Positions 6,886-41,237 of a stretch of DNA of 64,000 bases are shown here, one piece after another (within the stretch, counting starts at the first letter, position 1; each line of letters begins with the position of its first letter). Position numbers and translations under genes: made by a program. Origin of the DNA: Natronomonas gomsonensis (GTDB taxonomy: Archaea > Halobacteriota > Halobacteria > Halobacteriales > Haloarculaceae); contig NZ_CP101323.1 of NCBI RefSeq assembly GCF_024300825.1, positions 558,001-622,000 of the forward strand, written 5' to 3'. The notes below the pieces were generated by a model that saw only the letters and a program-made list of their open reading frames with translations, had not been told where the DNA came from and searched no databases.

Positions 6886-6959
6886 GGGCGTGTGGCCAAG
6901 CGGACTACGGCGAGAGGTTCCTAACTTCTAGAGCGCGGGTTCGAATCCCGTCACGCCCG
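6886..6959 (+). tRNA. tRNA-Arg (CCT anticodon)
   Basis: Cloverleaf folded by eye: acceptor GGGCGTG/CACGCCC with discriminator G, D-stem GCC/GGC, anticodon stem AGAGG/CTTCT with loop TTCCTAA (anticodon CCT, codon AGG), and T-arm GCGGG-TTCGAAT-CCCGT. No intron and no encoded CCA. Its 3' end is copied twice, in decaying form, within the next 190 bases. Confidence 0.93.
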
Positions 6960-6984
6960 TTCTGCGAGGAGCGGACGCGACGAG

Positions 6985-7150
6985 CGAACGGGCACGGAGT
7001 TCGAACCCTGAAAGACGCAGCGCCGAGCGTAGCGAGGCGACCGTCTTTCTCCGGTTCGAATCCCGTCACGCCCGTCTCGCTCACTTTGTTCGCTCGACGC
7101 GCGTGACGTAGTTCGAAAACGCTTCGCGTTTTCTCACTCCCGTCACGCCC
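6985..7150 (+). repeat. tRNA-tail element: decayed copies of the tRNA-Arg 3' end
   Basis: A 23-base exact copy of the tRNA-Arg T-arm plus acceptor 3' strand (6938-6960) recurs at 7053-7075. A shorter 12-base copy (CCCGTCACGCCC) lies at 7139-7150. The 23-base copy is preceded by a hairpin AAAGACG (7011-7017)/CGTCTTT (7042-7048). The shorter one is preceded by the smaller hairpin GAAAACG-CTTCG-CGTTTTC. A homologous element follows tRNA-Lys near 41.0 kb. No protein-coding gene is credible in 6960-7240. Confidence 0.7.
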
Positions 7151-36116: not shown

Positions 36117-36297
36117 TGGGGACGGAGGGATTTGAACCCCCGATCTACTGATATCTCCGGTGTAGCGCCTCGGTCCTCCAGAGGGTCGTCAACGCGGAGC
36201 GATGATCAGTCGTCCGCTCGGTATATCAGTCTGGAGTCTCGTCACCGGGCGCGTGGCCTCTGGAGTCAGCCGCCATGCCTGGCTTGGCCACGTCCCC
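36117..36297 (-). tRNA. tRNA-Trp (CCA) with long intron
   Basis: Minus strand. Acceptor GGGGACG/CGTCCCC with discriminator A, T-arm GGGGG-TTCAAAT-CCCTC, anticodon stem GCTGA/TCAGT, anticodon CCA in loop CTCCAG/A. A 107-base intron (about 36153-36259) lies after position 37. As in other haloarchaeal tRNA-Trp introns, it has C/D-guide character: box-C-like GTGACGA, and CCTCTGGAG (36176-36184 on the plus strand as CTCCAGAGG) complementary to the anticodon-loop/5' intron. Splicing is by the tRNA endonuclease. Confidence 0.9.
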
Positions 36298-41000: not shown

Positions 41001-41094
41001 GCGGGCCGAGGGGGATTTGAACCGGAGCAAGACGTGCTCGCTCCCTTCGGTCGCTGTGCGCGACTTGCAGGGTTCGAATCGCTGACCCCGTTCG
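41001..41094 (-). repeat. tRNA-tail element downstream of tRNA-Lys
   Basis: A 27-base exact copy (40997-41023) of the tRNA-Lys 3' end and trailer (41159-41185). In transcription order it is preceded by ...CGAACGGGG...TTCGAACCCTG, a hairpin CAAGTCG/CGTCTTG, then CTCCGGTTC and the tRNA 3' sequence. The same order of blocks occurs after tRNA-Arg at 6985-7075, so the two elements are homologous although attached to different tRNAs. Confidence 0.68.
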
Positions 41095-41163
41095 TTCCTC
41101 ACGAGGAGACGAGCAGGCCTCGCTGTCGCTCGGCACTGTTCGGCGTATTGTTCGAAACAGAAG

Positions 41164-41237
41164 CGGGCCGAGGGGGATTTGAACCCCCGACCGTCTGGTT
41201 AAGAGCCAGACGCTCTCCCTGGCTGAGCTATCGGCCC
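41164..41237 (-). tRNA. tRNA-Lys (CTT anticodon)
   Basis: Minus strand. Acceptor GGGCCGA/TCGGCCC with discriminator G, D-stem GCTC/GAGC, anticodon stem TCTGG/CCAGA with loop CTCTTAA (anticodon CTT, codon AAG), and T-arm GGGGG-TTCAAAT-CCCCC. No intron, no encoded CCA. Confidence 0.94.

Follow-up and report, generated by a model that had tools for sequence, protein, structure and literature searches.

Hairpin units followed by a copy of the local tRNA tail behind tRNA genes of the Halobacteria

A repeat family located behind tRNA genes was found in about 96% of the sampled Halobacteria, and it obeys strict rules, since each unit combines a covarying hairpin core with a copy of the tail of its own tRNA that runs from T54 to N73. 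These units are explained here, with roughly even chances of the explanation being right, as lineage-specific, non-autonomous and non-coding hairpin elements of the Halobacteria that enter the tRNA T-loop and duplicate the target tail. The analysis started from a window of 64,000 nucleotides of Natronomonas gomsonensis (NZ_CP101323.1, positions 558,001 to 622,000 of the forward strand), for which a preliminary description had proposed a small mobile or structured element carrying the tail of the local tRNA and no simple integration scar, a central claim that is supported by the results below.

Two blocks in the Natronomonas gomsonensis window

The blocks behind tRNA-Arg and tRNA-Lys are present where they had been described, as judged from the coordinates and from the tRNA calls of ARAGORN and Rfam. 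The tRNA-Arg(CCT) gene lies on the plus strand at 6886-6959 (ARAGORN, Rfam RF00005), with its tail (T54-N73) at 6940-6959, and is followed on the same strand by a first unit composed of the M1 segment (6960-6995), a hairpin reaching from the tRNA to the inverted arm, the inverted arm GGAGTTCGAACC itself (6996-7007), which pairs with GGTTCGAATCC in the tail copy, a type A core hairpin (7008-7052; loop CTG, stem AAAGACG..CGTCTTT, loop CTCC) and the tail copy TTCGAATCCCGTCACGCCCG (7055-7074), which matches the tail of tRNA-Arg exactly and is preceded by GG at 7053-7054. Directly 3′ of it, a second plus-strand unit of a different type (type B, 7075-7150) comprises an inverted acceptor part (7099-7115), a hairpin AAAACGC/GCGTTTT (7116-7132) and a partial tail (7133-7150), and type B units were also present behind tRNA-Gly(TCC) and tRNA-Gly(CCC) of the same genome. 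Types B and C, seen at 7075-7150 and behind tRNA-Ala(GGC) and tRNA-Ala(CGC), constitute a second architecture, in which the acceptor part serves as the inverted arm and the copy does not start at T54 but with the 3′ T-stem strand (TCCCG...).

The Lys block as a whole spans 41002-41163 on the minus strand. Behind the tRNA-Lys(CTT) gene (41164-41237, minus strand; ARAGORN, Rfam), whose tail (T54-N73) occupies 41164-41183, the M1 segment (41082-41163), the inverted arm CGATTCGAACC (41071-41081) and a type A core hairpin (41024-41070; CTG / CAAGTCG..CGTCTTG / CTCC) are followed by GG (41022-41023) and the tail copy TTCAAATCCCCCTCGGCCCG (41002-41021), again an exact match to the tail of its tRNA. 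In both blocks the tail was copied over 20 bases together with the shared GG, the Lys copy being five bases longer (CTTCT). The tail copies and the block layout of the preliminary description were essentially right, while the exact borders of the copies (T54 to N73, 20 bases plus GG), the inverted arm and the second Arg unit had been missed.

The two type A cores were recovered from the N. gomsonensis genome by a covariance model of the core (model R1, seeded with 17 sequences) with E-values of 2.8e-17 for Arg and 6.5e-17 for Lys, and covariation also supports both. When the tRNA copies were masked, the Arg and Lys blocks aligned with a local score of 49, which is beyond chance, as 2000 dinucleotide shuffles gave a mean of 17.4 and a maximum of 35. 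The stretch TTCGAACC(CTG) is the inverted arm, which pairs with GGTTCGAA in the tail copy and makes each block one long imperfect hairpin, as seen in the fold of the Arg block, whose RNA fold had a z-score of -4.3. The weak fold z-score of the Lys block is uninformative, as the input was a fragment lacking the 3′ arm. The window also harbours an intron-containing tRNA-Trp(CCA) gene (36117-36297, minus strand), found by Rfam and missed by default ARAGORN, behind which no tail copy was seen.

Searching the whole N. gomsonensis genome (3.65 Mb) with the Lys block, the best partners appeared directly behind tRNA-Gly(GCC), tRNA-Arg(CCT), tRNA-Leu(TAA) and tRNA-Gly(CCC), with a weaker one behind tRNA-Ser(CGA). 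Other hairpins with tail copies were present behind Gly(TCC), Phe, Ala(GGC), Ala(CGC) and Leu among about 49 tRNA genes read. In the unselected tRNA set of this genome, tail matches with a score of at least 24 occurred ten times downstream and once upstream. At C1:3503175-3507010, about seven unusual tRNA genes (Gly, Glu, Met, Glu, Asp, Gln) lie within 4 kb, a cluster that is probably part of a provirus or another mobile element.

Anatomy and covariation of the units

Counted from the tRNA, a unit consists of M1, which is usually a hairpin, an inverted T-arm complementing GG-TTC-RANT-CC, the core hairpin (CTG-NCAG-T-CG...CG-T-CTGN-CTCC), GG and the tRNA tail copy. The 5′ side of the core contains a 3-base loop, a 4-bp stem of free sequence, T.T (or A-T) and CG, after which comes a variable top, and the 3′ side contains CG, T, the returning stem strand and a 4-base loop ahead of GG and the tail copy, the structure being a 3x4 internal loop and then a freely covarying 4-bp stem, T.T and CG. 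Few types of loop pairs were found, namely CTG/CTCC, CGG/ACTC, AGG or AGA with CCGT or GCGT, and ACG/ATCG. The units are arranged in tandem arrays with an inter-tail length of about 70-150 bases that contains no gene, and their left ends are not conserved.

Among 96 distinct sequences, 92.5% of the pair cells were paired and double changes were observed in 20 of the 23 pairs, in an alignment that was fitted to the model and is so biased towards it, the same covariation being shown by the unfitted seed alignment. A total of 290 double-change cells were counted compared to 94.5 in shuffled data, and slid registers collapsed. The compensating outer pair noticed at first between the Arg and Lys hairpins is real and grows into strong covariation across many sequences, which demonstrates the structured nature proposed for the element. 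A core subtype, CAGCCCGCGC...GAGCAGGANCG (e.g. in L077, G025 and G050), presented a recurrent C.A mismatch in an otherwise covarying stem, which is G.T if read on the opposite strand.

Borders and ownership of the tail copy

The mean identity between copy and tRNA over 90 non-redundant units was 0.9-1.0 exactly from T54 to N73 and fell to background outside, although the flanks alone are unbiased, as the units were selected by a match of 15/20 inside these same 20 bases. Since the GG before T54 is common to all tRNAs, the left border (G53|T54) is known within two bases. The tail of the own tRNA was copied at 135 of the 205 collected loci versus six with a foreign tail; these loci were partly selected by the model, and copies are present in the unselected set of N. 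gomsonensis too.

The idea that the inverted arm repeats the whole of the own tail in reverse orientation was rejected because the T-loop and the first stem bases fit and the acceptor part does not; in a comparison over longer stretches, the own tail was the best or tied in just 33 of 151 arms. In the Lys unit of N. gomsonensis the tail is a perfect Lys tail, and the inverted arm and flank fit the tRNA-Glu(CTC) tail better than the Lys tail, as expected if the target gives the tail and the donor gives the arm. A duplication including the downstream flank was also rejected, being found at few loci (Lys, Ser) and weak overall (4.49 vs. 3.71 matches per 12 bases).

Spread through the Halobacteria

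Many further tRNA genes of haloarchaea are followed by similar blocks, so that the preliminary description withstands both refutations it had named, the other being a masked alignment no better than chance. With a strict pattern, 17 matches were obtained in 14 of 60 relatives, and none with its reversed control. Fourteen of the matches were placed behind tRNA genes of many kinds and one within a gapped tRNA-Gly locus, the remaining ones being displaced from its tRNA (L077) and apparently a chance match (L086). Across 84,980 species a strict pattern appeared in haloarchaea only (Halobellus, Haloarcula, Salinigranum, Halorussus, Halorubrum, Halobium, Natrialba and others), a tRNA gene lying no more than 400 bases ahead of 23 of the 25 matches, while the remaining two are located at contig edges. 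Model R1 matched 378 of 392 Halobacteria genomes. Furthermore, the 26 genomes matched by R1 in a phylum-wide sample all belonged to the Halobacteria, with no match in the sampled genomes of the phylum outside this class. Nearly all the inspected R1 matches were behind tRNA genes, of about 20 kinds. The unit-free genomes may hold other core types, as G043 has type D.

An attachment site carried by viruses or plasmids was rejected, since nothing relevant to the core was found in phages, plasmids and viral contigs (three patterns against IMG/VR, plus phage and plasmid searches), two weak matches in bacterial plasmids being due to chance. Four orphan units lacked a near tRNA (L077, L213, L219 and L221), and no version bearing cargo was found among them. 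The only one traced, L077, is an array that an ordinary integrase island has separated from its tRNA, leading back to tail arrays and to no larger parent. L213 (G061 C1:1221362) and L219 (G060 C1:381553) had no tRNA within 600 bases and tyrosine integrase genes close by.

Turnover and proposed mode of insertion

The occupancy of orthologous sites was variable. Among 11 members of the genus, the tRNA-Lys(CTT) site was empty in seven, type A was present in two, type D in one and type E in one, and the tRNA-Arg(CCT) site varied likewise. The flank that follows the tail copy in N. gomsonensis has its counterpart immediately 3′ of the tRNA in an empty relative (G001), and the arrays of two sister genomes (G046 and G061) differed by whole units. 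Moreover, cores scoring 0.9-1.0 per base were found behind different tRNAs, whereas M1, arms and tail were local; this similarity could partly be due to shared constraint and not to movement. In 38 of 148 cases the nearest core of another isotype belonged to the same genus, compared to 14.2+-4.2 expected. The occupied and empty orthologous sites, the differing core types per site and the near-identical cores behind different tRNAs suggest the mobility claimed in the preliminary description, and neither a transposition event nor an enzyme was seen.

In the explanation preferred here, a recombinase supplied in trans would read the folded core and the universal T-loop (G53|TTC), and the unit would be inserted at the T-loop, the target's own 20-base tail then flanking it on both sides. 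With its own tail on either side the tRNA would stay intact, and the tails would constitute a direct repeat, between whose 20-base copies recombination would lose or multiply units. The inverted arm would retain its complementarity to the local T-loop either through selection acting on the fold or through correction inside the palindrome. We infer both the enzyme and the direction of copying. Tyrosine recombinases were encoded in 18 of 18 genomes tested, none of them tied to the units. The elements were not found to encode an enzyme, to carry cargo or to occur in a free form, and phages, plasmids and viral contigs yielded none of them. A gene missing from the unit-free genomes was considered and rejected, as integrase counts did not separate these genomes from the unit-rich ones. 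A step that duplicates the tail must be assumed because a conservative integrase crossover imports the donor tail and breaks a tRNA of another kind.

This last point bears on a rather unlikely alternative, the conservative site-specific recombination of tiny cassettes, in which a tyrosine recombinase would exchange in the T-loop, a circle would bring a functional tail and the old tail would be pushed outwards. Each distal tail would then have been functional once, and cassettes, each restricted to a single kind of tRNA, would travel from cell to cell and not from one tRNA gene to another. The two borders of the copy would be explained without duplication (crossover at G53|T54, functional constraint ending at N73), integrases that target tRNAs are known to use attachment sites in the T-loop (PMC8371274, a review), and a tyrosine recombinase was available in every one of the 18 genomes. 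The nearest cores from a different genus were also slightly more often of the same tRNA kind (18 vs. 11.2+-3.4 expected), a weak signal on which isotype-locked cassettes were rejected. However, cores of the same genus cross tRNA kinds (38 vs. 14.2), which is disallowed without breakage of the tRNA, no circle, integrase or cargo was found, and integrases occur in unit-free and unit-rich genomes alike.

Strand bias and other explanations

M1 folded better on the tRNA-sense strand in 63 of 86 cases (P = 9e-8), while control segments behind tRNAs showed no strand folding bias. In the arms, G.T/T.G mismatches (57/503) exceeded A.C/C.A mismatches (21/397; P = 0.001), and the strand bias of the core was not significant (P = 0.10). 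The bias of M1 together with its lack in the core suggests a probable function of M1 in RNA and a possible one of the core in DNA, and the folding of M1 counts against the preferred explanation by pointing to an RNA role too. These biases, together with copies that end exactly at the mature tRNA end, would also be expected of a cis-acting RNA element of pre-tRNA trailers, acting in the control of 3′ processing or as a decoy and inherited mainly vertically. From the sequences at hand such an element appears improbable as the explanation, given the patchy presence of the units, the different core types that members of one genus carry at a given tRNA, the core without significant bias and the C.A mismatch that pairs as G.T on the other strand.

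It is very improbable that template switching during replication or gene conversion between T-arms formed the units with no dedicated enzyme. The motif GGTTCRAATCC is common to nearly all tRNAs and nearly palindromic, the core ends GAACC...GGTTC could both act as primers at a T-loop, outward synthesis then producing the local tail in inverted and in direct orientation at once, and some units do show direct-inverted-direct layouts running into the flank. Nevertheless, the inverted arms match the local tRNA only at the T-loop and first stem bases and not at the acceptor part, and the strict borders and the conserved unpaired core bases would be left unexplained.

A true island was observed at the tRNA-Thr(GGT) of genome G024 (L247 13100-19240; contig 23, about 99106-105240), being 6.1 kb long and carrying an N-6 methylase-like gene besides a tyrosine integrase. 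Tail copies are typical of islands, including this one, but it is least probable of all that the units are scars of ordinary integrative elements with their bodies lost, since one covarying core recurs behind many different tRNAs and occurs in none of the viruses and plasmids searched, the island copy has 34 bases and begins before the T-loop (the units having their border at T54), and the island has an older unit on its far side from the tRNA. A simple integration scar was rejected because the core is conserved and covaries and because the borders differ from those of the true island.

The units exemplify an element multiplying within the most essential of genes without harm to them, and their tandem, fast-changing arrays make the rules of gain, loss and copying directly testable. 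They also confound island searches relying on tRNA tail copies and, if the core were a recombinase site, would offer a ready-made tool for tRNA-directed integration in haloarchaea.

Comparison with known systems

Above the gathering score, only tRNAs were identified by Rfam in the window and five unit loci. No earlier description of the hairpin family was found in full texts, a coverage that mostly excludes subscription journals, where a prior mention is possible. Classical transposons have conserved ends, unlike the left ends of these units. The part of the work on Haloquadratum walsbyi drawn on here (PMC3119063) reports small mobile repeats, PATEs and MITEs, which resemble the units in being short, palindromic, non-coding and haloarchaeal; that part describes no link to tRNAs and no tail copy, whereas the units are confined to the 3′ ends of tRNAs. 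A presence that is polymorphic between orthologous sites, a trait of MITEs, was observed at tRNA-Lys(CTT), and no autonomous parent transposon with the same ends was found in phages, plasmids and viral contigs.

The elements that target tRNAs by tyrosine integrases also leave an intact tRNA in front and a copy of its 3′ part behind, and the T-loop is among their attachment regions (PMC8371274). The units share the intact tRNA and the displaced 3′-part copy and neither the integrase nor the island, being structured, about 70-150 bases long and present in many copies per genome behind many tRNA kinds. The casposase of A. boonei, an archaeal integrase, reads TCAAATC in the T-loop, targets the tRNA 3′ end and duplicates the target (PMC6614799), so that casposons and Cas1-type systems resemble the units in these three respects. 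Nonetheless, that duplication is 14-15 bp long and begins only 8 bp past the T-loop motif on its downstream side, whereas the segment copied in the units has 20 bases, includes the T-loop and ends at N73, and the units have different starts, no genes and no terminal inverted repeats at both ends.

Integrons proper were rejected, no IntI having been found in 60 relatives: none of the 60 exceeded the curated cut-off for the integron integrase (TIGR02249), with weak matches only, as to any tyrosine recombinase. Archaeal integrons have been reported in metagenome-assembled genomes, in a study whose main text does not mention haloarchaea (PMC9668308). The units differ from attC sites in the box, GTTCRAA(T) instead of GTTRRRY / RYYYAAC, with the junction G|TTC at the same triplet and C as the fourth base, in their insertion into the tRNA T-arm instead of attI and in the lack of gene cassettes. 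On the other hand, they are short, end in an imperfect hairpin and are lined up in arrays, as in integrons and CALINs (attC clusters without integrase), and like attC they have a conserved outer box with a G|TT junction, an unpaired spacer, an inner stem of variable sequence and a variable top, plausibly being recognized by their shape. The attC-like succession of box, spacer, box, variable top and sequence-free inner stem is indeed present in the units. We tentatively consider, as a possibility that is still doubtful, a class-wide recombination system, with integron-like arrays of a new type anchored at tRNAs, in which the tRNA T-arm would act as attI, the hairpin would be recognized by shape as in integrons, the cassettes would leave the tRNA its own tail and the recombinase would come from the host.
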